This document shows positions 12,801 to 57,900 of a stretch of DNA of 64,000 nucleotides, piece after piece. Source of the stretch: Xestospongia bergquistia (Eukaryota; Porifera; Demospongiae; Haplosclerida; Petrosiidae). The stretch lies in NCBI GenBank assembly GCA_963965975.1, contig OZ014411.1, positions 15,644,446-15,708,445 of the forward strand, in the 5' to 3' direction. Position numbers and translations under genes: made by a program. Positions within the stretch are counted from its first letter, which is position 1, and each line of letters opens with the position of its first letter. The notes under the pieces were generated by a model. It was not told the DNA's origin, ran no database searches, and was given only the letters and a program-made list of their open reading frames with translations.

Positions 12801-13146
12801 TTTTATAATTATTGTGATATTAATTTGCTGTATAACTGCTGTTGTTATTACAAAAAATCGCATAAGACAAAGTTACAACACTCAACAAGTTATGTATGAC
12901 ACACCTACAGTTAATACTCTCCAGTCAAATGGAAGCAAAGAACCTAACACATCAGCTGCATTGAGTTCCTTTCCACCTCTCCCCACTCATAATCCTGTTG
13001 TGCAAACATCTAGACAGCAAACATTTAATGTGGACAACCCTTTTAATGTAAAAGATAATCCAGCTTATCAATTGGCTGGTGGTGTACATGGAGGGTGCCA
13101 GCCTAATTATAATAATGTGGGAAACACATCCTTCAAGTATCACTGA
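9840..13146 (+). CDS. Delta-like Notch ligand, MNNL-DSL-TM, no EGF repeats (copy B)
   Basis: Five exons join with matching phases into 381 residues: 9840-9881 (signal peptide, MASTSILILLSSVM), 11194-11520 (MNNL; VQLKSYSNPNR then a Cys-rich stretch), 11703-12033 (DSL, about residues 186-231, with YYQSDCSVYC and GHYTCD), 12396-12428 (short linker), 12734-13146 (membrane span about 260-285 and cytoplasmic tail). DSL proteins are membrane ligands of Notch receptors on neighbouring cells. The tail has NPF (346-348) and NPAY (353-356), motifs that elsewhere bind EH-domain and PTB/clathrin adaptors, consistent with ligand endocytosis. Oddities: no EGF repeat between DSL and membrane; the fifth DSL cysteine is Ser (residue 220), and an upstream cysteine kept in copy A is Tyr (residue 181). 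The reading frame is open throughout. Activity towards Notch is inferred only. Confidence 0.85.
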
Positions 13147-18100: not shown

Positions 18101-18880
18101 AACCTTAAAGTAACAGCATGAACTATAATGTCCTTTCTTGTTACACCGATGACATGTTGCCTCCTTTGCTGGGCACTTGTGTTTTTGATGTCCTTTACCA
18201 CAGCGAGAACACTCTGCATTTCGTGACTTCGCCTTTTCTCTTCCACTGCGTGGTTCTTTTATTTTACTGAATCTCTTCCCTCCTCTGACTTGGTCTACAG
18301 CTACATGAGCGCCTGCACCTTGTTCGTCTTTGTTTAGTGTTTGCTGCTGCTCCTTGACAGCTTCTCGTTGACGTACAGCTTTCTTAGCCGATTCTAAGGT
18401 GAGCTTCGGGTCTAGCTGTAGCCGTTCTGACAGCACTGTGTCTCTGATACCTACCACCAGCCTGTCGCGTATCATCTCCTCTTTCATCGCCCCATACTCA
18501 CAGTCTTCCGCTAGCTTGTAGAGCTCCATAATGTATCGCTCGGAGGTTTCCCCCGGCGCTTGATTACGCCGATTAAAGCGAGCTCTCTCGAAGATAACAT
18601 TTTTCCTTACTTTGAAGAAGGATTCGAAAGTTTCGATGATTCCATCGTAGGTAGTCATAGCCTCCTCGCTTGGTACTCCTGTCGAGTCCAGTATGGCTTG
18701 TGATTCTTCTCCAAGGCAATACAGAAGAGTGCTGACTTGCCGTTTCTCGTCTTCTTGCGCGAGCCCAGAGGCGATACGGAATTGCTCAAAGCGGCATTTC
18801 CACTTTGGCCATTCTTCAGGATTTCTGAAGTTAAAAGGCTCAGGAGGAGAGAGATGTAGTTGGGCCATCGCTGCCACCAT
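15197..18880 (-). CDS. Gag-Pol polyprotein of Ty3/gypsy element (single frame, integrase core missing)
   Basis: One open frame of up to 1,227 residues. In order: Gag; two zinc knuckles (CSRCGKGHQKHKC and CHRCNKKGHYSSC, near residues 225-257); aspartic protease (VDTGAE, near 300); reverse transcriptase with LIDDILVY near residue 580; RNase H (SADSSLYGVG); integrase zinc finger (HRGHQG, then CQEC) and the first catalytic Asp in GTDLF. Near residue 1046 (about 15745) the protein jumps from ARHGIPEF to MSLLVYRS. Compared with the second element in this window, about 65 residues carrying the second Asp and the Glu of the DDE core are absent, in frame. The first ATG overlaps the PBS boundary; the fifth codon (MAQLHL, 18868) is the likelier start. 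Gag and Pol are not separated by a stop or frameshift. The copy cannot integrate by itself. Confidence 0.92.
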   Translation of the reverse strand: MVAAMAQLHLSPPEPFNFRNPEEWPKWKCRFEQFRIASGLAQEDEKRQVSTLLYCLGEESQAILDSTGVPSEEAMTTYDGIIETFESFFKVRKNVIFERARFNRRNQAPGETSERYIMELYKLAEDCEYGAMKEEMIRDRLVVGIRDTVLSERLQLDPKLTLESAKKAVRQREAVKEQQQTLNKDEQGAGAHVAVDQVRGGKRFSKIKEPRSGREKAKSRNAECSRCGKGHQKHKCPAKEATCHRCNKKGHYSSCCYFKVVGEVSTHSSPNEMELDTVFLDTLISDANEYWKARIEVNGTKLQFKVDTGAEVTAMSEKDYQGLRKVNLQPTSKILYGPSHHILKTIGQFRGKVKYGEKQSEQLIFVVRGLKTNLLGLPAIMALKIAARTDAVIDQKTQLFEKYPSVFTGLGSFGEEYSIKLKDDAKAHALFTPRQVPLQYRSKIQKELERMESLGVISKVDEPTPWCAGMVAVPKRNGSIRICVDLRPLNESVLREVHPLPKIDDLLAQLSGATVFSKLDANSGFWQIPLEKESRLLTTFITPMGRYCFNKLPFGITSAPEHFQKQMSKVLAGLEGALCLIDDILVYAKTQEEHDIRLEAVLKRIQKSGVTLNPEKCEFSKSSLTFLGHVVDKHGVHPDPQKTDAIRSMKPPKDVTELRRFLGMVNQLGKFTPRLAELTHPLRELLGKRNLWRWESPQNVAFSQIKEELSKLTTLVPYNMEAETKVSADSSLYGVGAVLLQKQQQSWRPVAYASRSLSETEKRYAQVEKEALAITWACERFSTYLLGIQFLIETDHKPLISLLGTKQLDNLPPRILRFRIRLTRFNYAIQHVPGKLLYTADTLSRAPQWEETDKNSQDRTESLMEVVISDLPASKQRLAQRADQICQAVIKYWQQGWPQEHQAHFTIGDGLLLYNTRIVVPKSLRKETLVDKIHRGHQGIERCRARARMAVWWPGLSKEIVELVKSCQECTKRFTLKHEPLIPTKLPEYPWQEVGTDLFTFKNSIYLVVVDYFSRYPEIARLTSTTSQGIIMALKKVFARHGIPEFMSLLVYRSTPMSWCGLSPAELCMGRKLRANLPQTIDQLKPQWSYIGNFSRLNEAFKKKQQQEYDRRHKARPLPPIPNNSPVWVNTGTTIIPGRVMKQHGTPRSYIIKTPSGLLRRNRRHLNPSPGLELRNSVTHDDNTDQAPTSGDSDIVEEPLPRPIMTRSRTGTVIHPPERFGNVVSYY

Positions 18881-19063
18881 GTAGTATTTGACGAAGTATA
18901 CCTTTTAACAACTATCACAATTATATATTATATATCAAATCACAAAATCAGTTACTTAAATAGTAAAGTATACATTCCACAGATATAACACATTAGTACT
19001 GTCCTATAACACATTTACACGTAAGTTAACACATTTGTAACAATGCTTTACAGTTATGCCACA
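18880..19063 (-). repeat. 5' LTR of the minus-strand Ty3/gypsy element
   Basis: 184 bases; should hold the element's promoter for minus-strand transcription. The PBS starts at the adjoining base 18879, with TGG complementary to a tRNA CCA end. The tRNA species was not identified. Confidence 0.95.
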
Positions 19064-22733: not shown

Positions 22734-22982
22734 TGTGATATACTAGGTAACTTGATAAACCTTGAACCTACATGTATAATTCTATATTCATTATTGTGTA
22801 TTATTACGTCATGTATCGATATAAATACCGCATGCTTTTAGTATTTTGACAATTGACATGAGTTGTCATTAGTTGTATTATTTGCTACAGTTGTTATAGT
22901 TATCATTATTATTACTATTGTCATTGGGTCGGTTGTTAGTTGTACCATAGCTAGTTCTACAATTCTTCACTCGGTCACCACA
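22734..22982 (+). repeat. 5' LTR of plus-strand Ty3/gypsy element
   Basis: 249 bases. TATAAAT at 22820-22826 is a plausible core promoter. It is 18 bases longer than the 3' LTR because of short indels, including a region of TTATCATTATTATTAC repeats. Confidence 0.9.
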
Positions 22983-23033
22983 TTGGCGACGAGGGTAATT
23001 TGGAAACTTCATCTTCTATTCTACTCTGCTGAA

Positions 23034-23852
23034 ATGGCAACTCACGGTACAATATCTTCATTTGACCCAGACAAGGAACAATGGACATCGTATGCCGAAA
23101 GTTTAGATTTCTATTTTGAAGCTAATAATGTCACCTCTGCAGAAACTAAAAGAGCAATCTTTCTAACTGTTTGCGGTCCCTCTACATTCCAACTACTGAA
23201 AAGTTTGGTACAACCTAACACTCCGAAAGAAAAGACCTATACTGAACTAAAAGAGTTTCTTGAGAAACATTTCAATCCTAAGCCATCTTCGATAGTTCAA
23301 CGTTTCAAATTCAACACAAGAATAAGAAAATCAGGTGAATCCGTTGCCACTTATGTCGCTGAATTACGTGCTATCGGAGAACATTGTGATTTTGGTGACA
23401 CATTCGATTTAATACTTAGAGATAGACTCGTTTGTGGAATAAACGACACACGTATCCAAAGAAGATTACTTCAAGAGCCTAACTTAACATACAAAGAGGC
23501 TTTCGAAACAGCCCAAACCATGGAAATCGCAGCTAGGGATTTTCAAGACATTACTCAACATCAACAAAACTTCAAACCGATTGCTGTTCACCGGTTGATG
23601 GACAAAAGTGGTCGGAGCCCCACCACAGTAGCTGCTACGATCGAATGTTTTAGATGTGGTGGTAACCATTACGCTAATAAATGTAATTTTCAAGATAGGA
23701 CATGCCATGCTTGTGGAAAGAAAGGTCACTTGGCTAGAGTTTGCCGAAGCAGCAAGAGAGCTCTAGCCTCAACTCAGGATGGAAGAAGGAAAAATTACAA
23801 ACCATCTTCTAAGGATCCACCCCGCAAGCACACTACTCATACTATAGATTAA
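23034..23852 (+). CDS. Gag of the degenerate Ty3/gypsy element
   Basis: The ATG at 23034 opens 272 residues ending in TAA at 23850-23852. The open frame extends upstream into the LTR, but this ATG follows the PBS and starts a Gag-like sequence (FDPDKEQWTSYAESLDFYFE). Two zinc knuckles lie near the C-terminus, CFRCGGNHYANKC and CHACGKKGHLARVC. The same frame continues after the stop into the pol region, so the TAA could be either a natural gag terminator or decay. Confidence 0.85.
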   Translation: MATHGTISSFDPDKEQWTSYAESLDFYFEANNVTSAETKRAIFLTVCGPSTFQLLKSLVQPNTPKEKTYTELKEFLEKHFNPKPSSIVQRFKFNTRIRKSGESVATYVAELRAIGEHCDFGDTFDLILRDRLVCGINDTRIQRRLLQEPNLTYKEAFETAQTMEIAARDFQDITQHQQNFKPIAVHRLMDKSGRSPTTVAATIECFRCGGNHYANKCNFQDRTCHACGKKGHLARVCRSSKRALASTQDGRRKNYKPSSKDPPRKHTTHTID

Positions 23853-26800
23853 TTGGAGCCTTGCTTAATGGAAGAAGACCAGGCCTCATCAGACAGATCC
23901 ACCCCTACTACTTCAAAGGACTACCCTATGTTTACACTACCAGGGAAGACCAGACCTATCGTGGTCACAGTTCAAGTGCAGGGAGTTGACCTTCCCATGG
24001 AATTAGATACAGGGGCTTCCCTCTCACTTATTAGTGAAACAACTTAGTCAAATTTGTCAAGTACTTTAGGCCCACTTACTCCATCTAATTTTACACTCAC
24101 TACATATACAGGAGAAAAGATTTTTCCTCTAGGATCTAATAATGTCCAAGTCAACTACCAGTCTCAATGTGCATCTCTCCCACTATTAGTTGTTCCAGGA
24201 GATGGTCCAACTTTGCTAGGCCGTAACTGGCTTGAGAAAATCAAGATAAATTGGTCAGACATTAAATTACTTAACACTTTTTCTACCTTAGAACAGGTTT
24301 TAGGTCAACATTCAGCGGTTTTTATTTCAAGCATTGGCCGGTTGAAAGTAATTACAGCAAAGATCCTAGTCAATCCAGAGGCTCGTCCCCGTTTTTTAAG
24401 GCCCGCCCGGTTCCTTATTCTCTGAAAGAAAAGGTTATCAAGGAACTACAGCACCTACAGGACTTACAAGTCATTACTCCAGTCAAACACTCTGACTGGG
24501 CAGCTCCCATAGTGTCCATTGTGAAAACAGATGGATCAATTCGCTTATGCGGAGATTATAAGGTTACCATAAATCCAGCTCTCATTCCTGATACATACCC
24601 ACTCCCCCGTGTGGATGATCTTTTCACTGCTCTCTCTGGAGGCAAGATTTTTACTAAATTAGATCTCAGTCATGCCTACCTTCAAGTACCCCTGGATGAC
24701 TCCTCCAAGAAATACACTACCATAAATACACCAAAAGGACTATTCCAGTATGAACGTCTACCTTTTGGCATCTCTTCTGCTCCATCAATTTTCCAAAGAA
24801 TCATGGAAACCCTTCTAAGTGACTTACCCCATGTCTGTGTTTATTTAGATGATATTCCTATTTCAGGTACAAGTGAAACAGACCACCTCCAAAATTTACA
24901 CCTTGTCCTACAACGTTTGGAAAATGCAGGCCTCACCTTAAAGAAATCTAAGTGCAAGTTCAGGGTCTCATCAGTAGAATATTTGGGCCATATTATTGAT
25001 GCAAATGGACTTCATCCATCAGAATCGAAAGTCAAAGCCATCAGAGATGCACCAACACCTACAAATGTCACAGAACTTAAATCATTTCTTGGTTTACTCA
25101 ACTATTACCATAAGTTCTTACCAGATCTCTCTACTATACTAGCCCCGCTGCATCAACTTCTCCGGAAGGATGCTAAATGGATTTGGTCCCAAACACAGGA
25201 TAAAGCCTTTCAACAAGCAAAATCCTTACTTCAGTCTTCATCCTTACTTGTCCATTACGATGAAAAGAAACCCCTCATCCTATCCTGTGATGCCTCTTCC
25301 TATGGGTTAGGTGCAGTACTAAGTCACCAGATGGAAAATAATACCGAAAAACCGATTGCTTTCACTTCACGTACTCTAACCACAACAGAAAAGAAATATT
25401 CTCAATTAGAGAAGGAAGCCTTGGCAATTATTTTTGCTGTAAGGAAATTTCATGACTATTTGTATGGATGAAACTTTACATTATATTCTGATCACAAGCC
25501 TCTCCAATACATCCTTGGTGAATCAAACCAGATACCAACACCTACCTCGCCTCGTATGCAACGATGGGCTATCACCCTTTCAACTTATTCCTATACAATC
25601 AAACATAAACCAGGAACCCAGTTAGCAAATGCTGATGCTTTAAGCAGGTTGCCATTACCAGACACACCCAAATTTGTTCCTATACCAGCCGACATTAAGT
25701 TACTACTAAACCATTTGGCAGAATCAGTCATACATACACCACAAATCAAAACATGGACAGACCAAGATCCCATACTCTCACGTGTCCGTAGACTTGTTTT
25801 GACTGGCTGGTCATCATCTATACACCCCCCCCCCCCCCCCTGAACTCCAACCATTTACACAATGTTATACAGAACTCAGCGTTATTGATGGGTGCCTTCT
25901 CAGAGGTTCTCGTGTCATTATTCCTCCTCAAGGTAGAAAATATGTCCTCTCTCAACTCCATGATACCCATCCCGGTATCAGCAGAATGAAAGGCCTTGCC
26001 CGGTCCTACGTATGGTGGCCAGGTCTAGATAAAGACATTGAGAATGTAGTCAAACACTGCAACACCTGTCAGATGCACCTTCCTACTCCACCCCAAACAA
26101 TTATTCACCCTTGGGAATACCCATCAACTCCATGGACCCGAGTTCATGTTGACCATGCTGGTCCATTTCTCGGCAAATATTTTTTCCTCCTCATTGATGC
26201 CTATTCACGCTGGATGGAAGTTCACATAGTTAACTCTACCTCAGCTGAAAGTACTATTAACATTCTCCGACGTATTTTTTCAATGCACGGTCACCACAAC
26301 AATTGGTATCGGACAATGGTCCAGCATTTATCAGTCACGATTTTAAAGTATTTGTGGACAAAAATGGTATCCGACACTCCCTTACTTCACCATACCACCC
26401 CCGCTCAAATGGTCTAGCTGAACGTGCAGTACAGACCTTCAAAACTACCATAAAGAAATTGGATGGACCACTTGAAACAAGACTTTCCAGTTTTCTTCTA
26501 CATTATCGTATTACCCCTCAGTCCACTACAGGTCTCTCTCCTTCAGAATTGCTGATGGGTAGAAGACTACAAACAGTTTTCGATCTTCTTCACCCCGATA
26601 TACCAAAGAAAGTTGAACAGAAACAAGAAAAAATTCAGCAACCACGTCAAAAGATTCGTACCTTTTCAGTAGGAGACAAACTTTATGTAAAAAATTATTC
26701 AGGTTCATCTGCATGGATTCCTGTTACAGTAATCAAAATTACAGGTCCAGTGTCATACCATGTAGAAACCAAGAGTGGTATTGTCATCCGTAGACATGTT

Positions 26801-27019
26801 GATCAACTTCGTTCCAGATGTACTGACAGCAAAGAACTACAAATTGAAAGCAAAGATCAGGACAATTTTGATGATTCTCCCATTGTAAGACATCCCCAAA
26901 ACTCTACACCTACAGTTACAGTATCAGCACCTGCCAATATTCGTACAACACCGTTGTTACGTCGCTGGACTAGAGAGAAAAGACAACCTGAGTGTTTTGG
27001 CCCATATATTTCATGCTAA
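23853..27019 (+). pseudogene. Pol of the degenerate Ty3/gypsy element
   Basis: Fragments in order: protease (ELDTGASLSLIS, about 24000), reverse transcriptase with YLDD near 24842, RNase H (SCDASSYGLGAVL), integrase zinc finger (CNTCQ), catalytic core and C-terminal domain ending at 27019. Breaks seen: TAG at 24045-24047; a one-base frame change in the T run at 24392-24397; TGA at 25469-25471; a frame change at a run of 16 C at 25825-25840; another frame change at about 26285-26300 in the integrase core. The element cannot make a full Pol. Described only; no repaired reading is given. Confidence 0.9.
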
Positions 27020-27700: not shown

Positions 27701-30700
27701 CTTGAAAAGAATAGAGTATTTATTACACAATGCACAATTCAAGTTGTCATATTGGTCGCGTATAGATAACTGTACTTTTTTAGTCAGAGGCCATCGGCCC
27801 TTGCACAACCCTCCCGTCAATCTCTTTTTACCATTTCCACAATATCATCCCATGCATCATCTTTCATCAGCCTCTCTTCCACAAAGTCCCCCCCCCCCAA
27901 CTCAGCAACCTTTTCCTCACAACCAAATTGTCCATCATCCTCCATATCATCAAAGCTTAATGAACAATCTAACTACTCTGTTGTTAACTCTATTAAGTCC
28001 ACCTCTCTCTCCTTCAAACCCAGTTCATTAAAAATCTTACACTTCAATACTTGAAGTCTTCTCCCTAAATTTGATGATCTTGCTCTTATATGTTCCTTTT
28101 CTTTCCCTGATATTGTTTGTATTTCTGAGTCCTGGTTGTCTCCTGACATTTCTGACAATGAAATCTCTATACCAAACTATCACTGTGTTCATAAAGATCG
28201 CTCCCACCATGGAGGTGGAATAGCTGTTTATATTAAACCTTCACTTTCATTCAAAGTAATCCCATCCCCCTTAAACCTTGAACTCATCCTTCTCTCTGTA
28301 GCTATTCATTCAAGCTTGGCTCTTTCTATTGGCCTCCAAGTGACAAATGGATCCCTGGACATCTTAAATGATTTCTTAACCTCTCTAAACCATGATCATA
28401 TGAAAAAAATTTTCTTACTGGGGGTTTTAACATAAATTTTATGAGTTCTTCTAACCAAACTCCTTGACTTTACCAATTCGATTGATCTTTCTCAAGTTGT
28501 CAAAGAACCTACTCATTATCCTTACTCTAGTACACCATCAATTATTGATCTTATTTTTGTTCTTTCAAAATTGTCATGTCCTTTTTTTGTTCTTCCTCCA
28601 TTGTCTTCTTCAGATCATAGTTCATTATTGTTCATTGTCCCTTTGAGACAACAATACAAACCATCCTCTAAGAACTTTTGTAGTATTTGGCTTTATAGTA
28701 AAGGTGACTTTAAAGCAGCTAATCTAATCTTCTCTTCTCTCCCCTGGGACTCTCTCTTATCCTCTATTAATGTCAATTACTCTTGGTCCATGTTTAAAGA
28801 AATCTTTATTGAAGTAATGAATCGCACCATCCTATCTAAATTAGTGGCTATTAAAAATTCACCACCCTGGGCTAACAACCACCTCCTTTCTTGTATTTGC
28901 AAACTTAATGCTGTATTCACTAAAGCCAAAACAGCTAAATCATCATCTCGAATGTCTCAATATCGCATTTGTAGAAACAAAACACTCTCCTACCGACATC
29001 ATTTGAAATCTACCTTCTTTCACAAGCTATCCTCTTCTTCAACTTTCAAGGACTTCTGGTCTCTCTTTAAAAAATTGAATAAGAAGTCTTCCTCTATTCC
29101 TACTTTGTCCTTTATAGTGGCTCCTCAGCTACCACAACTTTACCCAAAACTAATATGATTAACCAAATCTTTTGTAATTGTTTCAATCTATCTGTTCATC
29201 CCCTTTCCTCAGCTTCTGGTGACTCTGGTACCTCTGAAGAATGTCCATCTTATCTTTTATGCTCCAACATCAAAGTTGCAAAGCTCCTTCTTCAGATTCC
29301 ACCTAATACTTCTACAGGTCCTGATGGTATTTCTGCTTATATGTTAAGAGAAACTTCCTATTCCATTTCATCCCCACTTACTTCTATCTTTAATTTGTTG
29401 ACTAAGTCTGGTATCTTTCCTGATGACTGGAAAAATTCTCATATTATCCCAATACCAAAGCACTCTTCAGCTCCATCTTCTCCCACAGGTTATTGCCCCA
29501 TACCTCTACTACCACTTATCAGCAAGGTCCTAGAAAGACATATTATTAACTGGTTACTGGACTGTTTGTCAGACTCATAATCTTTTATCTGATTCTCAAT
29601 TTGGTTTTAGACCTGGTCATTCCACAAATTCTGCCCTGATCACTTTCACAAACTCATGGTTTACTCAGCTGGATAAAAGTTACTCTATCTGTGCAATCTT
29701 TTTTGATCTAACTAAAGCATTTGACTCAGTTCCACATCAACCCCTTCTTGATGTACTTTTTTCACTTGACATTCCTCATCACCTTACGGTTTGGCTTCAA
29801 AGCTATCTCACACTTCCATCTCAGCAGGTTGTTGTTGATGGCTGTTCCTCTTCTAAGTCTACTGTCCTATCTGGTGTTCCTCAAGGCTCGATTCTTGGAC
29901 CACTTCTCTTCATTATGTATGTGAATGACATTTTCCAGTTATCTTTCTCCTCAAAATCATCCATTATCCTATATGCTGATGACATCCTCCTATTGTGTCC
30001 CTTCAAATCATACTTTGAATTTTCACTTGCACAATCTAATGTTAATATTCTCTCTTCCTGGGTCAAATCTAAACACCTAACGATTAAACACTCAAAAACC
30101 AAATACATGATCATTTCCAGGAAGTCTCCTACATCCTTTACTGCTCTTCCTTCTCTTCACCTTGATGAATCACCTCTTGAATCATTTAAGTACCTAGGTG
30201 TTACTCCAACCTCCAACCTCTCCTGGTGTACTCACATCAAATATACCTGTTCCAAGGTCAAGGAACTGCTTGGCTGCATCTATCATCAATTTACACTAAC
30301 TCTTCTTCTGTTCTTATCAAATTGTATTTGACATTAATGCTCCCCATCCTTATGTACAGCTCCTCTGTTTGGGATCCATATTCCATTCCTAACATTAACA
30401 AATTGGAAAAAGTTCAACACTTTGCACTAAAACTTTACAGTAAAAATTGGATCTCTGATTATCTTCTACTTCTACAACTCTTTAATCTTCCTTCTCTATC
30501 CTCTCACAGAACAACATCCAAGCTTGTTCTTTTATACAAGTTTATTTTTAGTAATCTCTACATTCCTGCTGGCTCTTTTTCATTTCAAAATCAGTCCTCT
30601 TATACTTTACGTTCTTCCCACCCATTAAATCTTAATCTGCCTTTCTCAAGATATTCTACTACCCTCTGTATTATGACAATTCTCTTATATATAAAAAATC

Positions 30701-30715
30701 ACAACAGTTAAACAG
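27700..30715 (+). mobile_element. LINE (CR1/L2/Jockey-like) retrotransposon, broken
   Basis: Contains an AP-type endonuclease fragment at 28136-28435 (KDRSHHGGGIAVYIK) and a reverse transcriptase over about 29280-30330: TGPDGISAYMLRE, FDLTKAFDSVPH, GVPQGSILGPLLF, and YADD near 29980. These are hallmarks of non-LTR elements of the Jockey/CR1/L2 group. Reading changes frame several times (for example near 28435, 29158, 29580 and 30330) and contains stops, so it is dead. There are no LTRs. A short TATATAAAAAA-like stretch near 30687 may be the 3' tail; neither end is certain. Confidence 0.85.
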
Positions 30716-38599: not shown

Positions 38600-41500
38600 T
38601 TATTTTCTTGTTATGTATATAAAATAGGCTATAACAGCAACAAAAATGGCTACCAACAGCAACATAAACCAACTACCATCCTTTCCTAGTGAGTAAAGAA
38701 AGAACACATAACTCATTCAGACAATGTACTCAAAAAATTTGAAATATTAATTAACTAAATGCCAACAACAGACATAAGTAATAGCACTAATTAATTTAAA
38801 ATAAGGAAAGTTTAAGATAAGATATCAAATTTTCTTATTTAACATTATAACTATATAATTATACCTTTTGTCTTAATTGGCTCTTGATAAATTGGAGGAG
38901 GAGAATTAAAAGTGGTATTCTCTTGACCTATGGAGTGACACAGGAACAATTGTTAAATGCAATTTTTAACTTTACCAGGTTGATAGGAGTAATCATTTTT
39001 GATCTCAGGTCTTAATAAGTAGTAAAATATCTTTTCTGCTACTGCTTTGTTTTGTACAGGTGGGTCCTCAACAACAGTGATTATCATTCTCCAAGATTTT
39101 TCACAAGTTCTCTGATCTTTCCAAACCCGTAGAACTTCTAAGAGTTTTGCAGTATCATTATGTGGCCAATTCTGTTTAATAGACTTTAGATGAACATCAT
39201 TCACAGCAAGTTGTACACCAATAATTTCCCAATCACACCTAATGTCATTAAGTTGTGTCATCAGGTGTTGTATCTTAGGCTCTTTACCTATAATAATGAG
39301 AAAATAAGAAATATGACTTAATTAACTACTCATTGACAAAATTGTCTATTAATTTGCAAATTTCATAACTCACATAACAATTCATCAGAAATTCCTAATC
39401 CATCATACGATGACGGGATATGGATAGAAGGATGACTATTGGTAGAAGGAGTACTGGTAAAGGGAGCTATATTAAAAAAAAGAGCATAATTATTATATTT
39501 CTATTTAATGCTTCAGTAATTATATAAGCTCAGGTAATATGTTATATGACATTATATTAAAACATGAATATGTTCTGTCTTTAATACCACTCACTTGTTG
39601 TCTCTTGCTCTTGTTGCAAATTATAACTAAAAATTACCAAAGTCATTTGCAGCCTTATTCCTCTAAAAGTAAGCCGTAAGTCAGTGAGTTCCTTGTTATC
39701 TTTGAGAGAGACTTTAAAGGTTAAGGATGGTAGGGCAGAGTCTGGTTGACATCGATCAATGAACTTTCTAGAAAGCTTAAACAATACAAAATTTAAAACT
39801 TCACAACAACTAGGACTTTACTTGGAATGGTAACAACATTGGCTGAATGTCATAATTTTCATTAGCAATTGTAACTTCAGTAATGTTAGGATCGGAGAAA
39901 GCAAATGTGTCTATCCTTTTCCAATTTTCAAATTGTTTCTCTGTTTTCACTCTCTAATATAGATAACAAACATTTTATACAGTGGTTATATAGTGTTATA
40001 GTTTTTTATTCATTATGGTTGCATACCTCAATAAAAGGTCCAAGATTTTTAGTAACAACTGCTTGTACTTCCCAACAAAACTTTGCCTTCTCTTTGAAAA
40101 ACACTGTCATTGCATAACTATGAGATGGTTGTTGAAATAAAACACTCCTAATTTTATTGATGATGCCAATGACACAAAAATCAGAGATTCCTACAACACC
40201 AGAATTGTCATAAGGTGTAAACACTTGGTCATATTCAGTTGGTAACAGCTCAAACTTGTAAGGTGGTTGTCCTTTAGCTCTGATAAATGCTAGATGTTGA
40301 CTTTCCTCTTGTGACCTGAGCTGAACATTATGTTGGAGATGAAGCTTAATAGGTTTAGAGAATTTTCCAGTTGTTTTAATCTTGTAGAAACAGCTAACAA
40401 GCTCAACATCAGGAGGGAGGATGATATCGGACTCTTTTAATGCGACTACATTGACTTCAGTTTTGATATCCTGCCCTTCTTCCACTGATGATGGTGGAAC
40501 GACTAGCTTGATTCCATACTCTGGTTTCTCAAAAACTTGCTCTTCATTGAGGTATTCAATATTCCATATAGACACATCTTCCAAAACTAAATAATAACAA
40601 ATCAAACAAGTAGAAGTACTACATAGTTGTTGTCTAATACCTTACCTCGTTTTGGATTGTACTCCTTGAAAACTCTGGAAACTTCATCCTTCCTTTCGTC
40701 ACAACATTCATCTAACGGAGTGTTACCCTCATTATTTTTTATAGTCGTATCTGCATCTTGAGATAGCAATGATTTTATAACATTTATATGACCTTCTTTG
40801 GAGGCAAAATGCAATGCAGTATTACCATCCTATTTAAAATTAGACTAATCAATAAAAGAATTTATGGATTGATTGACCTTGTTACAAATATTAGGATCTG
40901 CATGATAATGTAAGAGTAACTGGACTATCTCAGAGTGACCTTTTCTTGAGCTACAATGCAGAGCTGTCATCTGAATCTAGAGAAATTAATTGTCATATTA
41001 ACTAGTTCATCATTAACATCAATGGTATCACTATCTCATGCAAGAAAGTATGGTACAGAATTAATAATATGTGTTACATATGCAACAATATCTATATGCA
41101 ATATATATTAGCCTTATCACAAATATTAGGATATCCATTATGTTTTAAGAATAACTAGACTATCTCATTATGACCATTATTTTGAGGTTCTATGTAGAGC
41201 TACTATCAGATCATAGAGAAATTAGTTGTTATAAGTCAGTTGTAGAATTCATGGTAGAATTTTACAAATGGGGTAGGCCAATGGTCTGGCAATATAGTGC
41301 AGATTTCTGCCTAACATACTTGGAGAAAATATCTTATTTGCAAATACTTTTATCTCCTGGCAGTAATCACTGTAGAAACCATTAAGCCAATTATGGAATA
41401 GAGATAAAGCATTAATCTAACCTACTATTCAATGTCAGAACTGAACTATCATGTCAATTAAACTAACTGATGTTCTCATTAATTGTTGACTCTACAGTAA

Positions 41501-45900: not shown

Positions 45901-48900
45901 CCATTTCTGGTATTCATTTAATTCGAACTTTATTACAACAGTAATGTAATTGATAACTGTATTATAAGAAAAATTATTTGCACATTATCTTCAGATACAG
46001 AGGGTTAGTAATGCAAGATATGCAATGAACACTTACTGCATTAACAATGTCTAGATTAGCTCCTTTCTTGGTTAAAATCAAAACAACATCTTTGTATCCC
46101 ATTTTTGTTGCTATGATAACTGCTGTAGATCCCGCCTAAATATATAATAATCTCATAACCCCTAGCCAATGAACTACAATAATAACTTACACACTATCTA
46201 TAGTAACATTTTTTATTACTTATTACGTGAGTACACTAGTAACATTACAAATGTAAACAACATTAACAAGTTAAACAAACCACACTCAACAACTCTTACA
46301 ATAGTGTCATCAATATAAATAACACTCTTGTGTACATAAATATACACAGTCATTACTTCAGAACAGACACACTTTTGCACAATTATCAGAGTAACAACTA
46401 ATGAAAAGTTGACCTTTAACAGTAGTCTGATCATAAAAGAATTATTTATTTCTTAGTAGCACACAGGAAGAAACTAGTGTTCCTTAAAATCACTCTCTTA
46501 AAAATAAATTCAACAAATAGTTCCTTTATCATAATGTTAGAATATATGTTAGAAAATACACAACACTTAATATTACATAAAAAAGAACATATTCAGATGA
46601 CAAGTATCACAACAATGAAAATGTGAATAAACTACAGATTTAAAAACAATAATATTATTTCAATAAACCTTGTTATGCTACATTATATGACACTTACTAG
46701 CTGTTATGTTGTAAAAGACACACATGACAGTTATTACATGACCAAAATGTGAAAACGAAAGAAAAGATTAAAGACAATGATAAAAATGCATTGAATTAAA
46801 ATTAGTATTTATATTACATTATATTATGCTTACTTGCTATTACATTGCAAATGACACATTCAGATAAGAAGATATTACAAAACCATAGATTTGGAAACAG
46901 AAAATAATAGAGTAAAAAATGATAACAATGAATTAAATAAATTTAGAAATTATATGTCATTAAATAACATCTATTAACTAATATATTATAGAGGAAAATT
47001 CAGATCACAAGATTCTACAGCAACATGAATTAGGAAAAAAGTTTTTGGAGTAAACAAAATGAGAACAATACATTAAATAAAATTAGAAAGTAAATTACAT
47101 TTTATCACACATTTTATGCATTCAGGTGACAAGTGAATACAACACCATTAATGTGTAATCCAAAAAATAGTATTACATTATATTACACTTACCTGTTATT
47201 ATATTATAAAAGGAACATTCAGATGACAAGTTATTATAGCAACAAGAGTGTGAAAGAAAACAATCAAGTGAACAAAGTAAGATCAATGGATTAAACCAAA
47301 TAAGAAAGTATATTTTAGCACACTTACCCACTATTACATTGCAGAGGACACATTCAGAAGCACAGCACAACAAATGTGGAAACAATAGAGTAAAAGACAA
47401 TGCATAGAAAATAATTATAAATTACATTGCATTATGTCATATGAATGTCCTGTTATTTAATTACCCATTCAGATGACATTTTATTACAGTGCCAATTGTG
47501 TAAACAAAAACAATGGAGTGAGAAAAATAATAAAAATTTATTCAAGAAAATTAGAAACTATACTATATTATATTACTTATCCACTATTATGCATTATATA
47601 TTAAAGGACATTCTGATGACAAATTATGACAGCACCACAGTTGTGGAAATAAAAACTGTGTAAACAAAATGACAACAACATAAAAAAAAGTAGAAATTAA
47701 ATTATATTACACCACCTATTATTTAAGGATGCATTTAAGAAAATTAGAAAATATAGTATATTATATTTAAATGCTATTATATTTAGATTATGTAGAAAAA
47801 TTAAAGAGTAAACAAATGACAACAATGCATTGAAGAAAATTAGAACTTATGTTACATTATTTCACACTTATTTCTATGATAGTGTTATGGACACATTCAT
47901 ATGACAACTTATTACAGCACCAGAAATGCAGAAACAAAAAAATAATAGAATACAAAAAATAACAACAACATGTTGAATAAAAATAGAAATTACATTAAGT
48001 TATATCATAATAATCTGCTATTATATGGTAAATGAGGCATTAAGATGACTAAGTTATTATAGCAATACAAATGTGGAGACCAAAAAAGCAAACAAAACAA
48101 AAAAATAACAATGGATTGAGCAAAATCTGAAATTATATTAGATTTTGTTATGCTTAGCCTCTATTATATTGAAAAGTATACATTTGGAGAACCAGATATA
48201 ACAATACAAGAAATGTGTAAAAAATAAAGAAAAAAAACAAAGTGATAACAATGCATCAAATTAAATTAGAAATTGTATTATAATATATAACACTTACTTC
48301 ATACTTGAATTACATTACAGAGTTAAGGACACATCCAGATGACAAGTTATTGTACCATAAACAATAATGAAAGCCAAAAAGATTAAAATAGATACAATCA
48401 CAACAATGCACTGAATAAAATTAAAATTATATTACATTATGTCAAACTTACCTCCTATTGTAATGTTAAAGGAAACATCCAGATGACAAGTTATTGTACC
48501 ATAAACAATAATGAAAGACAAAAAGATTAAAATAGATACAATCACAACAATGCATTGAATAAAATTACAATTATATTATCTAACTTACCTCCTATTGTAA
48601 TGTTAAAGGAAACATCCAGATGACAAGTTATTGTACCATAAAAAATAATGAAAGACAAAAAGATTAAAATAGATACAATCACAACAATGTATTGAATAAA
48701 ATTAAAATTATATTACATTATGTCAAACTTACATCCTATTTTAATGTTAAAGGAAACATCCAGATGACAAGTTATTGTACCATAAACAATAATAAAAGCC
48801 AAAAAGATTAAAATAGATACAATAACAACAATGCATTAAATAAAATTAAAATTATATTACATTATGTCAAACTTACCTCCTATTGTAATGTTAAAGGAAA

Positions 48901-51900
48901 CATCCAGATGACAAGTTATTGTACAAGAAACAATAATGAAAGCCAAAACAATTAAAATAGATACAATCACAACAATGCATTGAATAAAATTAAAATTATA
49001 TTACATATGTCAAACTTACATCCTATTTTAATGTTAAAGGAAACATCCAGATGACAAGTTATTGTACAATAAACAATAATGAAAGATTAAAATGGATACA
49101 ATCACAACAATGCATTAAATAAAGTTAAAATTAGATTACATTATGTCAAACTTACCTCCTATTGTAATGTTAAAGGAAACATCCAGATGACAAGTTATTG
49201 TACCATAAACAATAATGAAAGACAAAAAGATTAAAATAGATACAATCACAACAATGCATTGAGTAAAATTAAAATTATATTACATTATGTCAAACTTACA
49301 TCCTATTGTAATGTTAAAGGAAACATCCAGATGACAAGTTATTGTACCATAAACAATAATGAAAGCCAAAAAGATTAAAATAGATACAATCACAACAATG
49401 TATTGAATAAAATTAAAATTATATTACATTATGTCAAACTTACATCCTATTTTAATGTTAAAGGAAACATCCAGATGACAAGTTATTGTACCATAAACAA
49501 TAATGAAAGCCAAAAAGATTAAAATAGATACAATAACAACAATGCATTAAATAAAATTAAAATTATATTACATTATGTCAAACTTACCTCCCATTGTAAT
49601 GTTAAAGGAAACATCCAGATGACAAGTTATTGTACAAGAAACAATAATGAAAGCCAAAAAAATTAAAATAGATACAATCACAACAATGCATTGAATAAAA
49701 TTAAAATTATATTACATATGTCAAACTTACATCCTATTTTAATGTTATAGGAAACATCCAGATGACAAGTTATTGTACCATAAACAATAATGAAAGATTA
49801 AAATGGATACAATCACAACAATGCATTAAATAAAGTTAAAATTAGATTACATTATGTCAAACTTACCTCCTATTGTAATGTTAAAGGAAACATCCAGATG
49901 ACAAGTTATTGTACCATAAACAATAATAAAAGACAAAAAGATTAAAATAGATATAATCACAACAATGTATTGAATAAAATTAAAATTATATTACATTATG
50001 TCAAACTTACCTCCTATTGTAATGTTAAAGGAAACATCCAGATGACAAGTTATAGTGCCATAAACAACAATAAAAGACAAAACGATTAAAATAGATACAA
50101 TTACAACAATGCATTGAGTAAAATTAAAATTATATTACATTATGTCAAACTTACAACCTATTGTAATGTTAAAGGAAACATCCAGATGACAAGTTATTGT
50201 ACCATAAACAATAATGAAAGCCAAAAAGATTAAAATAGATACAATAACAACAATGCATTAAATAAAATTAAAATTATATTACATTATGTCAAACTTACCT
50301 CCCATTGTAATGTTAAAGGAAACATCCAGATGACAAGTTATTGTACAAGAAACAATAATGAAAGCCAAAAAAATTAAAATAGATACAATCACAACAATGC
50401 ATTGAATAAAATTAAAATTATATTACATATGTCAAACTTACATCCTATTTTAATGTTATAGGAAACATCCAGATGACAAGTTATTGTACCATAAACAATA
50501 ATGAAAGATTAAAATGGATACAATCACAACAATGCATTAAATAAAGTTAAAATTAGATTACATTATGTCAAACTTACCTCCTATTGTAATGTTAAAGGAA
50601 ACATCCAGATGACAAGTTATTGTACCATAAACAATAATGAAAGCCAAAAAGATTAAAATAGATACAATCACAACAATGCACTGAATAAAATTAAAATTAT
50701 ATTACATTATGTCAAACTTACCTCCTATTGTAATGTTAAAGGAAACATCCAGATGACAAGTTATTGTACCATAAACAATAATGAAAGCCAAAAAGATTAA
50801 AATAGATACAATCACAACAATGCATTAAATAAAATTAAAATTATATTACATTATGTCAAACTTACCTCCTATTGTAATGTTAAAGGAAACATCCAGATGA
50901 CAAGTTATTGTACAAGAAACAATAATGAAAGCCAAAAAAATTAAAATAGATACAATCACAACAATGCATTGAATAAAATTAAAATTATATTACATATGTC
51001 AAACTTACATCCTATTTTAATGTTAAAGGAAACATCCAGATGACAAGTTATTGTACCATAAACAACAATGAAAGATTAAAATGGATACAATCACAACAAT
51101 GTATTGAATAAGATTAAAGTTATATTACATTATGTCAAACTTACCCGCTATTGTAATGTTAAAGGAAACATCCAGATGACAAGTTATTGTACAAAAAACA
51201 ATAATGAAAGACAAAAAGATTAAAATAGATACAATCACAACAATGTATTGAATAAAATTAAAATTATATTACATTATGTCAAACTTACATCCTATTTTAA
51301 TGTTAAAGGAAACATCCAGATGACAAGTTATTGTACCATAAAAAATAATAAAAGACAAAAAGATTAAAATAGATATAATCACAACAATGTATTGAATAAA
51401 ATTAAAATTATATTACATTATGTCAAACTTACAACCTATTGTAATGTTAAAGGAAACATCCAGATGACAAGTTATTGTACCATAAACAATAATGAAAGAC
51501 AAAAAGATTAAAATAGATACAATCACAACAATGCATTGAATAAAATTACAATTATATTATCTAACTTACCTCCTATTGTAATGTTAAAGGAAACATCCAG
51601 ATGACAAGTTATTGTACCATAAAAAATAATGAAAGACAAAAAGATTAAAATAGATACAATCACAACAATGTATTGAATAAAATTAAAATTATATTACATT
51701 ATGTCAAACTTACCTCCTATTGTAATGTTAAAGGAAACATCCAGATGACAAGTTATTGTACAAGAAACAATAATGAAAGCCAAAAAAATTAAAATAGATA
51801 CAATCACAACAATGCATTGAATAAAATTAAAATTATATTACATATGTCAAACTTACATCCTATTGTAATGTTAAAGGAAACATCCAGATGACAAGTTATT

Positions 51901-54900
51901 GTACCATAAACAACAATGAAAGATTAAAATGGATACAATCACAACAATGTATTGAATAAGATTAAAGTTATATTACATTATGTCAAACTTACCCGCTATT
52001 GTAATGTTAAAGGAAACATCCAGATGACAAGTTATTGTACAAAAAACAATAATGAAAGACAAAAAGATTAAAATAGATACAATCACAACAATGTATTGAG
52101 TAAAATTAAAATTACATTACATTATGTCAAACTTACCAACTATTGTAATGTTAAAGGAAACATCCAGATGACAAGTTATTGTACCATAAAAAATAATGAA
52201 AGCCAAAATGATTAAAATAGATATAATCACAACAATGTATTGAATAAAATTAAAATTATATTACATTATGTCAAACTTACAGCCTATTGTAATGTTAAAG
52301 AAAACATCCAGATGACAAGTTATTGTACCATAAAAAATAATGAAAGACAAAAAGATTAAAATAGATATAATCACAACAATGTATTGAATAAAATTAAAAT
52401 TATATTACATTATGTCAAACTTACAACCTATTGTAATGTTAAAGGAAACATCCAGATGACAAGTTATTGTACCATAAAAAATAATGAAAGACAAAAAGAT
52501 TAAAATAGATATAATCACAACAATGTATTGAATAAAATTAAAATTATATTACATTATGCCAAACTTACCGACTATTGTAACATTAAAGGAAACATTCAGA
52601 TGACAAGTTATTGTGCCATAAAAAATAATGAAAGACAGAAAGATTAAAATAAATACAATCACAACAATGTATTGAATAAAATTAAAATTATATTACATTA
52701 TGTCAAACTTACATACTATTGTAATGTAAAAGGAAACATCCAGATGACAAGTTATTGTACCATAAACAATAATGAAAGCCAAAAATATTAAAATAGATAC
52801 AATCACAACAATGTATTGAATAAGATTAAAGTTATATTACATTATGTCAAACTTACCCGCTATTGTAATGTTAAAGGAAACATCCAGATGACAAGTTATT
52901 GTACCATAAAAAATAATGAAAGACAAAAAGATTAAAATAGATATAATCACAACAATGTATTGAATAAAATTAAAATTATATTACATTATGTCAAACTTAC
53001 AACCTATTGTAATGTTAAAGGAAACATCCAGATGACAAGTTATTGTACCATAAAAAATAATGAAAGACAAAAAGATTAAAATAGATACAATCACAACAAT
53101 GTATTGAATAAAATTAAAATTATATTACATTATGCCAAACTTACCGACTATTGTAACATTAAAGGAAACATTCAGATGACAAGTTATTGTGCCATAAAAA
53201 ATAATGAAAGACAGAAAGATTAAAATAAATACAATCACAACAATGTATTGAATAAAATTAAAATTATATTACATTATGTCAAACTTACATACTATTGTAA
53301 TGTAAAAGGAAACATCCAGATGACAAGTTATTGTACCATAAACAATAATGAAAGCCAAAAATATTAAAATAGATACAATCACAACAATGTATTGAATAAG
53401 ATTAAAGTTATATTACATTATGTCAAACTTACCCGCTATTGTAATGTTAAAGGAAACATCCAGATGACAAGTTATTGTACCATAAACAATAATGAAAGAC
53501 AAAAAGATTAAAATAGATATAATCACAACAATGTATTGAATAAAATTAAAATTATATTACATTATGTCAAACTTACAACCTATTGTAATGTTAAAGGAAA
53601 CATCCAGATGACAAGTTATTGTACCATAAAAAATAATGAAAGACAAAAAGATTAAAATAGATATAATCACAACAATGTATTGAATAAAATTAAAATTATA
53701 TTACATTATGCCAAACTTACCGACTATTGTAACATTAAAGGAAACATTCAGATGACAAGTTATTGTGCCATAAAAAATAATGAAAGACAGAAAGATTAAA
53801 ATAAATACAATCACAACAATGTATTGAATAAAATTAAAATTATATTACATTATGTCAAACTTACATACTATTGTAATGTAAAAGGAAACATCCAGATGAC
53901 AAGTTATTGTACCATAAACAATAATGAAAGCCAAAAAGATTAAAATAGATACAATCACAACAATGTATTGAATAAGATTAAAGTTATATTACATTATGTC
54001 AAACTTACCCGCTATTGTAATGTTAAAGGAAACATCCAGATGACAAGTTATTGTACCATAAACAATAATGAAAGCCAAAAAGATTAAAATAGGTACAATC
54101 ACAACAATGTATTGAATAAGATAAAAATTATATTACATTATGTCAAACTTACCTCCTATTTTAATGTTAAAGGAAACATCCAGATGACAAGATATTGTAA
54201 CATAAACAATAATGAAAGACAAAATATTAAAATAGATACAATCACAACAATGCATTGAGTAAAATTAAAATTATATTACATTATGTCAAACTTACCGACT
54301 ATTGTAACGTTAAAGGAAACAAGCAGATGACAAGTTATTGTACCATAAACAATAATGAAAGCCAAAAAGATTAAAATAGATACAATCACAACAATGCATT
54401 GAAAAAAATTAAAATTATATTACATTATGTCAAACTTACATACTATTGTAATGTTAAAGGAAACATCCAGATGACAAGTTATTGTACCATAAAAATTAAT
54501 GAAAGACAAAAAGATTAAAATAGATACAATCACAACAATGTATTGAATAAAATTTAAATTATATTACATTATGTCAAACTTACAACCTATTGTAATGTTA
54601 AAGAAAACATTCAGATGACAAGTTATTGTGCCATAAAAAATAATGAAAGACAAAAAGATTAAAATAGATATAATCACAACAATGCATTGAATAAGATTAA
54701 AATTATATTACATTATGTCAAACTTACCTCCTATTGTAATGTTAAAGGAAACATCCAGATGACAAGTTATTGTACCATAAACAATAATGAAAGACAAAAC
54801 GATTAAAATAGATACAATCACAACATTGCATTGAATAAAATTAAAATTATATTACATTATGTCAAACTTACAACCTATTGTAATATTAAAGGAAACATCC

Positions 54901-57900
54901 AGATGACAAGTTATTGTACCATAAAAAATAATGAAAGACAAAAAGATTAAAATATATACAATCACAACAATGTATTGAATGAAATTAAAATTATATTACA
55001 TTTTGTCAAACTTACATCCTATTGTAATGGTAAAGGAAACATCCAGATGACAAGTTATTGTACCATAAACAATAATGAAGCCAAAAAATTAAAATAGACA
55101 CAATCACAACAATGCATTGAATAAGATTAAAATTATATTACATTATGTCAAACCTACCTCCTATTATAATGTAAAAGGACACATTCAGATGACATGTTGT
55201 TACAGTGAAAGCAATTTGAAAGGAAAAGTTTAGAATTAATTAAATTACAACAATGCATTGAATGAAATTAGAATTATATAAAATTATATCACACCTACCT
55301 GCTATTATAGTGTTAAGGACACATTTTTATGACAAGATATGTGAAAGATATGTGAAAAATTAGATAGTAAACAAAATGACAACTATCCATTGAACAAAAC
55401 AAGAAAGTATTTTGTAATATAGAACATGTGCTTCATATTCTTTTGTATAGAGCCAGTTCAAATGACAAGATCTTACAGTACCATAAATTTGGAAAGTAAA
55501 AATTAATGATAACAATACAATAAATAAATTAATAATTGTATTACATTATATTACACCAATTTTATTGTAAAAGACACATTCAGATGATAAGCAATTATAG
55601 CACCATGAAATTGAATACAAAATATAAATGAGTAGGAAATGACCATAATGCATGAAATAAAATGATTACATTATATCATACTTACCATCTATTATATCAT
55701 AAAGATCACATTCAGATTATAAGATTTTATAGTGACAAATATGGAAACCAAAAATAGTAGAGTAAACAAAATGATAACAATACAATAAATAAAATTAGAT
55801 TTTACATTACATTATGTGACATTTACTACCTATTGTATTGTAAAGGACACATTCAGATGATAAGTAATAATTATATCAAAATAAAGTTGAATACAAAATA
55901 TAGTAGAGTAGAAGAAATGACATTAATGCATCAAATAACATTAATAATTATGTTAAATTAGATTGCATTTACAACCTATTGGATTGTAAAGGACACATCC
56001 AGATGATAAGTAATTATATCACCACAATGTTGGGTATAAAATATAATAGAGTAGAGGAAATGACATTGATGTATTGAATACAGTTAAAATCATATTGTGT
56101 TACATCACATTTACTGGTATTATATTGTGTAGGACACATTCAAATGATGACTTATTATAGTATATTTAGAAACAAAAAAGGTAATCAAAATGACAGTATT
56201 ACATACGGTTAAAAGATTTGCAAAGATGATAGGTTTATATTCACTATGTTTCATAATGTTTATTAAAATCTGAAGAAGAGTTTCTAGTGTTTTGGTCTAC
56301 TAATGCATCCTTGTTAATGTAGTGAAATTAAATATACTTTAGAATTGTATCACTATAATATATCTAGTTAATATTTGTTTACACATGTAGCTTAAAGTCT
56401 AGAGTAAAGAACGACTTCATTCTCATGATCTAAATCACCTTAGTAGCAACATTGATATCTGCTCCATTGTTAACAAATACTTTAACTATATCCGTATGTC
56501 CTTTATAACTTGCATAATGAAGAGCTGTCCATCCTTCCTATTATTGGAACAAACAATCAACTTTTAATTAGACTGCTAGCATGTTACAATATACTACCAA
56601 CATACAAAATATCATTTCAATAAAATTTTAATCATTAAAAGATTATTGTCATGGCTTTTTTCCTTTATATCGATGGAAAAATGTTTAGACCTAAAATCAC
56701 ATATATCTATGACAAGTATAAGAAATTTTAGAGATGAGGTTCCACAAAATTTATTTATAAATATGGCACACCATTGTAGTTATTTCATGAAGGGTGTATA
56801 CAGAAGTCACAAACAAACACAGACTTGTGAAAGTTATGTTTATTTATTTTTGAAGAAAAATACAAAATTAAATAAGTTTTGTTTTATATTATGACTTTGG
56901 CTATTATATTTGTGTGAGCATTTGAATTGATTAGTAATAAATTCATAAATTGGGATTGTCATCATATGTTGGTACCCAATATGTAGGAAAAATGGTTAAT
57001 TTGCAAAATTTTCTGATATTGTAAAAAAATGTTTTGTATCTTGTTCCAAATCTGGTATTATGTTCTTTACTCTTTGACAACCAAACATAGTTAATTTATT
57101 TAGTTCAAAAACCCAAACATTCATGTGAGAGCAAGTAAAAAAGGAAATTACTTGGAGATAATGAGCATAAACATTTGAATTTCAGAGTTATAAAATAGAT
57201 GAGTTGCTCTAGACCATGAACAACATCTTGAAGTTTGTTGTTCTTCCTTAAGAGTCCATTAATTTGAATACTTGAATATGCATACCTTCCATAGGAACAT
57301 GTACAAACAAGTTAGTAGTTTTGTTAATTTTTTTTTATTTGTTTTTACTTGTGAATTATCCAGTTCATCATAAGTACTACTCTTATCCTTGCCATTGCTC
57401 TCTTTCTTTGTTTTAAAGTCTGACTAATTTTCAAAGACCCTATTAATATTATAGTTGTTCTATGTTAGTAATTTTAAATATTATATTATATAAATAAATG
57501 GTATGCTGACACAGAGAAAACCATTTAAGGTAGGACACTAGTTATAGCTTGTCATCGTTTAGTGACAAAAGTTTGTGACAATAAATTTTTATGTCAAAAG
57601 GTGGGCATGTTGCAAATTTGTCATGTGTCTTCTAATAGACTGTGATTTTTATTGTCCGTTGGTGTCCAAAAAGTAGGAAAATTAGTCACTGTACGTGTAA
57701 TAAAATTTACACTTTTTTTCCAATATTGCTTTGGATCCTCTGGTATTCACTTACTTTCAAAATTTAAAAAAAAAATTCAACATATATTATAACAGCATTA
57801 TAACTGATGCCTGTCTTTTAAGAAAAAAGGAGTTACGTTTATCATCAGTTAATCAGGATTTGTAATATAATATATGTACAAGAACACTTACTGCATTAAC

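Follow-up and report, generated by a model that had tools for sequence, protein, structure and literature searches.

A stretch of 64,000 nucleotides from the sponge Xestospongia bergquistia (contig OZ014411.1, positions 15,644,446 to 15,708,445; hereafter the window) carries, inside a long intron of an ankyrin-repeat gene on its minus strand, a tandem array in which nearly every unit of about 144 bp places an acceptor-like AG three bases before a donor-like GT. Arrays of the same kind recur elsewhere in the genome and, judging from their sequences, they probably consist of one-codon exons in tandem that undergo splicing and translation at least some of the time. In these arrays, a conserved AG and a conserved GT lie 3 nt apart, the triplet between them is hypervariable, stop codons are nearly absent from it, and most of the loci studied have ankyrin exons of phase 0 on the same strand.

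According to this model, each unit would consist of a short spliceosomal intron of about 130-144 nt, with a strong GTAAGT or GTAGGT donor, a branch-point-like motif and an AATAG acceptor, and, after it, of an exon exactly one codon long; an array would be a chain of such units housed in a phase-0 intron of ankyrin genes. A unit that is spliced in would add one residue with the frame unchanged, and one that is skipped would lose nothing. We infer that the spliceosome uses these sites and that the codons reach the mRNA and the protein, either all joined serially, so that two ankyrin repeats would be separated by a peptide tens of residues long, or with only a few of them chosen, and that selection would favour codon diversity.

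The array of the window and its host intron

Tandem Repeats Finder detects in the window 49.1 copies of a repeat of period 144 with 91% matches (Table 1). A previous, sequence-only reading of the window had described about 48 units in a 10.3-kb intron, with the acceptor exactly three bases before the donor in nearly every unit and eight forms of the triplet in between. The array proves to be real and to comprise 49 units, and the intron length agrees with the limits set by the flanking ankyrin exons. In a looser scan of the window, the 49 units (from 55301 to 48454) have AG in 47 cases and GG in two (50301, 49590), such that the AG-3-GT arrangement is found in 47 of 49. Their triplets are GAG (16), GAT (10), GTT (7), CGG (5), TAT (4), TCG (4), and CAG, GCT and TTG (1 each), which makes eight forms, as had been reported, when the diverged first unit is left aside, and nine when its CAG is counted. 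On the minus strand of the window, exact matches number 32 for CATTACAATAG, 42 for GTAAGTTTGAC and 30 for both of them with three bases between, and AATAG-NNN-GTAAGT occurs 47 times, 45 of them inside the array and two outside (55693, 47335); none of these four patterns has a match on the plus strand of the window. With the diverged outer units included, the window holds 53 AG-3-GT units, whose codons read in transcript order VVMQEDVEVYSERYSVRYSVRYSVALRDEEVDRDEEEDVEEDDDEDEDEEWQL.

The same reading had considered the variation to be limited to the three bases and had proposed per-position entropy as a check. Over 48 aligned window units and about 144 columns, the triplet positions rank first (1.53 bits), third (1.20) and sixth (0.99), for a mean of 0.22, and no stretch of the array varies more than the three-base block. 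However, some columns outside the triplet are comparably variable (1.33, 1.09 and 1.00 bits), and the word limited is therefore slightly too strong for the window array alone. Many window units are moreover part of higher-order repeats (GTT-CGG-TAT-TCG blocks), and the window units are thus not independent of each other.

Triplet content, spacing and variability across the genome

The genome holding the window comprises 146.5 Mb in 21 contigs. A two-unit query has at least 190 matches in it, those among the matches listed lying on contigs C1, C2 and C7 with identities from 100% to 69%. A loose pattern gives 4673 genome matches, versus 1120 for the reversed pattern, and the strict motif AATAG-NNN-GTAAGTNTGA gives 2383 exact sites, versus 0 in the reversed control. 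Besides the window, 26 stretches (L009-L034) were studied, 20 of them selected for the similarity of their DNA to the window unit and six taken from the pattern list, and they are therefore not a random sample. A triplet-masked profile returned 943 matches in these stretches and the window, 862 of which extend 30 columns past the triplet on both sides; the AG-3nt-GT arrangement is found in 709 of these 862 units. An earlier profile, covering L009-L028 and the window, had given 656 units, of which 559 were AG-3nt-GT, with no stop.

In the window and in 23 of the 26 stretches, there are ankyrin exons, and they share the strand of the units; among the stretches that bear them, L009 has one intact unit and L017 none. 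Within each stretch, nearly all AG-3-GT sites point one way (573 versus 2, the reference strand being set by the motif itself). At the array loci, 90 of 97 ankyrin exons consist of AG, 33 codons and GT with phase 0 on both sides, and a unit triplet, whose length of 3 nt is neutral for the frame, would therefore be one whole codon.

The 709 AG-3nt-GT units contain 44 different triplets, which stand for all 20 amino acids and include no stop. Per-locus shuffling of the three columns (5000 shuffles) leads to an expectation of 49.2 stops in these units (minimum 32) and of 15.2 (minimum 5) in the 246 distinct locus-triplet types, to which TAA and TGA alone contribute 12.2 in the units (minimum 2) and 5.6 in the types (zero in 0.26% of shuffles). 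All 15 sense forms of the NNG codons are present in the 709 units and TAG alone is absent. Genome-wide, stops occupy 3 of the 2383 exact sites (two TAR and one TGA); with 642 TNR and 579 NAR triplets among these sites, independence among the R-ending triplets would give at least 156 TAR (642 x 579 / 2383). Besides, no other column among the 138 varies as much as those of triplet positions 1 and 2 (1.91 and 1.95 bits out of a possible 2, in 711 first-profile matches from L009-L028 and the window), and these positions have a GC content of 50% versus 22.5% in the flanks.

These properties of the triplet bear on whether the array could be unspliced satellite DNA carrying a bipartite protein-binding box (AATAG and GTAAGT around a free 3-bp spacer) and lying in ankyrin introns because the gene family expanded. 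The arrays are indeed tandem and locally homogenised, conservation reaches past the splice consensus (ATAATAG, TGATATAATG), the acceptors lack a T-rich tract, and three stretches have no ankyrin exon. A free spacer should however hold stops and match the AT-rich background, and the triplet does neither; in addition, the unit orientation agrees with that of the ankyrin exons wherever these are found. Such a satellite is considered decidedly unlikely. As for neutral satellite drift as the sole cause, it is rejected on the contrast between triplet and flanks together with the stop deficit.

For the strict motif, the distance between acceptor and donor is nearly fixed: the 2383 genome sites with a 3-nt spacer stand against 27 with the other lengths combined, namely 16 with 1-2 nt, 6 with 4-5 nt and 5 with 6 nt. 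The intron-like gaps take many lengths around 130-144 nt, 596 of 683 being at most 160 nt long and the commonest being 140, 141, 139 and 138. In 45 units, the donor is intact but no AG stands at -3; the closest AG is 0 nt (21 units), 6 nt (13) or 2 nt (1) from the donor, and in the remaining ten the 32 bases examined contain none. The 0- and 6-nt cases mostly belong to a second unit subtype, in which AAG is found six bases ahead of the donor. This subtype, where GTAAGT is preceded by six bases (TATGAG, AATTTG, TCTGAC and others) and these in turn by CTAATACAAG or CTGATTTAAG, was seen in the L010-L019 arrays (C1 15.3-15.8 Mb) and at 48298-48303 of the window, and its members are perhaps two-codon exons. 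An exception to the 3-nt rule is formed by small clusters of AATAG-2nt-GTAAGT at C1 26.937-26.945 Mb, C2 3.63-3.82 Mb and C4 3.34-3.75 Mb; the diverged array L036 lies near the first of these, with three 2-nt spacers within about 6 kb of it.

The triplet also differs between units that are otherwise alike. Among 137 unit pairs with 120 identical flank bases, it differs in 52%, and with 136 identical flank bases it still differs in 39 of 93 pairs (at two positions in 25, at one in 14). Of these 39 pairs, 28 lie within L024, where 12 units with identical flanks carry CGG once, GAG three times, TCG three times and TTG five times. Collinear chaining was applied to 14 paralogous array pairs, the chains being best matches and not proven orthologues. 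In the chain of 40 units between the window and L016, 61% of the triplet sites differ at a flank divergence of 4.9%, while seven outer units have an unchanged codon (GTA, ATG, CAG, GAG and TGG, CAA, CTA); the GTA and ATG triplets of the window's diverged outer units are thus also present in L016. Codons are kept in 11 of 14 units between L020 and L022, in 10 of 23 between L025 and L026, and in 0 to 4 units in the other eleven pairs. These patterns may reflect either codon turnover with array amplification, or selection separating the codons while the introns homogenise. Hypermutation of every triplet was also considered, and is weakened by the codons common to chained paralogous arrays (window and L016, L020 and L022). 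Copying of the triplets from the first codons of ankyrin exons was rejected because the spectra differ, the commonest being GAG (110), TCG (70) and TGG (45) among the 709 units, versus GAG (23), GTG (13) and GAA (11) among the 97 exons.

Splice signals and the weight of the alternatives

In the 709 units, the donor is GTAAGT in 491 and GTAGGT in 125, and 331 motif instances are TTAAC or TTTAC placed so that the A falls at -12. In the earlier alignment, the three best conserved of the 16 non-triplet columns with a consensus G are those of AG, of GT and of the donor position +5, many A and T columns being equally conserved in this AT-rich unit. This conservation is relevant to another option of the sequence-only reading, namely that the units are fossil splice sites, left when an exon collapsed to three bases and was amplified with its intron, and now drifting. 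Degenerate units elsewhere in the window intron fit such a history, as does the decayed-looking array L030 (C6:4688001-4698000), with its TCA triplets and with ATAAGT repeatedly replacing GTAAGT. On the contrary, drifting sites are hard to reconcile with the G columns critical for splicing being better conserved across diverged arrays than any other G column, with missing stops, and with a triplet that is far more variable than its flanks and that, at its positions 1 and 2, has 50% GC against a 22.5%-GC background. Fossil sites are therefore disfavoured, and we regard them as very improbable. L030, together with L037, represents a related array on C6.

Several observations weigh against the interpretation of the units as spliced one-codon exons. 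Some of them concern the sample: 153 of the 862 profile-detected units are not AG-3-GT, the profiles were built from AG- and GT-bearing units, though matches needed neither, and the units are copies of one another, a kinship which weakens all counts and makes them overstate independence. Among the stretches examined, L030, L033 and L034 have no ankyrin exon, and in L030 only 16 of 59 units are intact, all 16 with the triplet TCA. Others concern the splice signals: no yUnAy motif is present within 30 nt in 112 of the 709 units, the commonest such motif lies just 12 nt from the exon, the AATAG-like unit acceptors lack the T-rich tract found in neighbouring ankyrin acceptors, and the triplets do not follow the ankyrin exons in their preference for A-A at donor -3 and -2. 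The splicing model is weakest on the acceptor side, which has no T-rich tract and in part no yUnAy. Concerning the codons, the three genomic stops lie in L035, a 1-kb stretch with a single strong unit, located 2.2 kb ahead of an array, in L036, a diverged and weakly matching array, and in L037, the TCA array of C6, with one TAA triplet. In the 709 units, the sense triplets TTA (0 versus 8.8 expected) and GGT (0 versus 6.2) are also absent and GCG is scarce (5 versus 29.4), which indicates that the triplet columns are non-independent for other reasons too. Finally, the stop deficit is confounded, as every stop triplet (G+TRR+GT) makes GTRRGT, a donor that overlaps the acceptor.

This overlap forms part of the idea that the units would only aid recursive splicing, the long intron being removed in steps of about 140 nt with the 3-nt pieces rarely in the mature mRNA, and stops being absent because the second donor in G-TRR-GT overlaps the acceptor. 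A 10.3-kb intron in which strong donors and conserved acceptors follow each other at short, regular intervals would suit such a role, and so would the fact that all three stop triplets make GTRRGT. In addition, zero-nucleotide AG/GTAAGT sites exist: among the fetched stretches, five units, all within the one-codon array L028 (C7:4193001-4203000), have AATATTAG (in one case the variant AAATATTAG) directly at GTAAGT. However, an exon of 3 nt would be superfluous in a true ratchet, yet the strict motif has this spacing almost exclusively. TGG is enriched (45 versus 25.8 expected in the 709 units) despite making GTGGGT, and TAT, which makes GTATGT, is near expectation (13 versus 10.7), which argues against an overlapping donor as the whole cause of the stop deficit; the hypervariable, GC-rich triplets would also be left unexplained. 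A purely recursive role thus appears unlikely, and translation would be the likelier cause of the missing stops.

Two further candidates were rejected. The motif TCCTTTAAC near the unit acceptor, which we take to resemble a U12 branch site, was suggestive of U12-type introns, but GTAAGT and GTAGGT make up most of the donors. The possibility of transposon ends with 3-bp target duplications was set aside by reasoning only.

Taken as a whole, 3-nt microexons fit best among the three options that the sequence-only reading had proposed, since the 3-nt spacing is nearly exclusive, stops are nearly missing and the ankyrin exons are of phase 0. Recursive splicing is compatible with them insofar as a stepwise-spliced microexon would also be a recursive site, although plain zero-nucleotide sites are rare in the stretches studied (the five of L028), and the fossil option is disfavoured.

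Gene context and comparison with known systems

By strand and order, the 3' part of the array-bearing gene would comprise further ankyrin exons and a ZU5 domain, followed by a weak death-domain match (Table 1). The window also contains, at 15197-18904 (-), 22857-27019 (+) and 28055-30711 (+), what we take to be retroelement frames, two Gypsy-like, one of them a single frame of 1235 aa, and one with a LINE-like reverse transcriptase. On the plus strand, the translations at about 4618-6007 and 11691-13146 are alike by eye, which suggests a tandem duplication. Elsewhere in the genome, the array L040/L033/L039 (C5:3428001-3440000) has a longer, alternating period of about 636 bp and lies upstream of a minus-strand reading frame; this frame starts with what is presumably a signal-peptide-like stretch, and the array may lie in a 5' untranslated intron.

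Table 1. The array of the window, its units and the surrounding gene (positions in the window)
Feature	Position	Strand	Details	Basis
Tandem array	48325..55324	(-)	49 units; unit of a ~141-nt intron-like stretch and a 3-nt exon-like codon	Tandem Repeats Finder and unit list
Phase-0 ankyrin-gene intron housing the array	46136..56438	(-)	10,303 bp; bounded by ankyrin exons (AG, 33 codons, GT)	
Ankyrin exon 5' of the array	56439..56537	(-)	33 codons; end ACTAAG/GTGATT	Pfam Ank/Ank_4
Ankyrin exon 3' of the array	46037..46135	(-)	33 codons; TTTAG/GCGGGA	Pfam Ank, E 2.2e-4
Another ankyrin exon and ZU5 domain	40006..40829	(-)		Pfam
Weak death-domain match	38953-39321	(-)	3' of the ZU5 part; under the Pfam cut-off	Pfam
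Example triplet GAG	48452..48454	(-)	last regular unit; between ...CATTACAATAG and GTAAGTTTGAC	
Diverged unit AAG/TATGAA/GTAAGT	48298..48303	(-)	possible two-codon (6-nt) variant	
Diverged one-codon units upstream of the core	55686..55829	(-)	GTA from 55829, ATG from 55688	

The literature on microexons (including those of Porifera and those in tandem or satellite arrays of introns), one-codon and single-nucleotide exons, micro-exon genes and recursive splicing was covered at the level of titles and beginnings of abstracts. At that level, no such array was found described, an absence which is no proof of its being unpublished. The statement of the sequence-only reading that no array of this kind has been described thus agrees with the literature searched, whereas within the genome the window array is one of a large family. 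Microexons of 3 nt are known from mouse Ncam and Drosophila TnT (PMC8042270) and are also treated in PMC4674806. Like them, the units have a very short exon-like stretch between an acceptor AG and a donor GT (709 of 862), a predicted one-codon exon which would be neutral for the frame whether included or skipped; unlike those named cases, which are single exons per gene as far as the consulted parts of these sources indicate, they form dozens of tandem similar units with hypervariable codons, at about 2400 strict sites.

Schistosome micro-exon genes have short exons of 3-81 bp and long introns and encode secreted proteins, according to the portion consulted of PMC10526429. The sponge arrays would share with them a series of many very short exons in one gene, but micro-exon genes have exons of varying length and long introns, while here one-codon exons of 3 nt would alternate with introns of about 141 nt that are satellite copies, near ankyrin exons of 99 nt. 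In micro-exon genes, the choice of exons may vary the proteins. Tandem alternative exons of the Dscam type, where duplicated exons in one intron encode tens of residues each, likewise offer a choice of sequence within one intron, but an exon of the present arrays would encode one residue. Recursive splice sites, or ratchet points, are treated in PMC8605326 and PMC6110457. Ratchet points have a juxtaposed acceptor and donor. The units resemble them by an acceptor closely followed by a donor inside a long intron, which would allow stepwise removal, but 3 nt would remain at each step, the sites are tandemly repeated, and AG does not directly abut GT in the 709 of 862 units that have the 3-nt spacing.

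The boundary between ankyrin repeats lies in an exposed beta-hairpin, and an inserted residue would therefore change a contact loop. It is tentatively proposed, as a possibility that we hold to be rather doubtful, that the arrays constitute a genome-wide coding system where each exon contributes a single codon to a hypervariable peptide, with uniform intron copies and selection renewing the codons, all or some of which would be spliced into the loop between two ankyrin repeats, thereby giving a combinatorial, fast-changing binding surface, possibly of an immune or self-recognition family. If the units are spliced, the genome would hold thousands of one-codon exons, which would be, to our knowledge, the most extreme exon fragmentation known. 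Such exons would probably be missed by standard gene predictors and read aligners. Their splicing would provide a natural test of the minimum exon size and of recursive splicing through coding units, and would represent a new route to diversify a protein loop.

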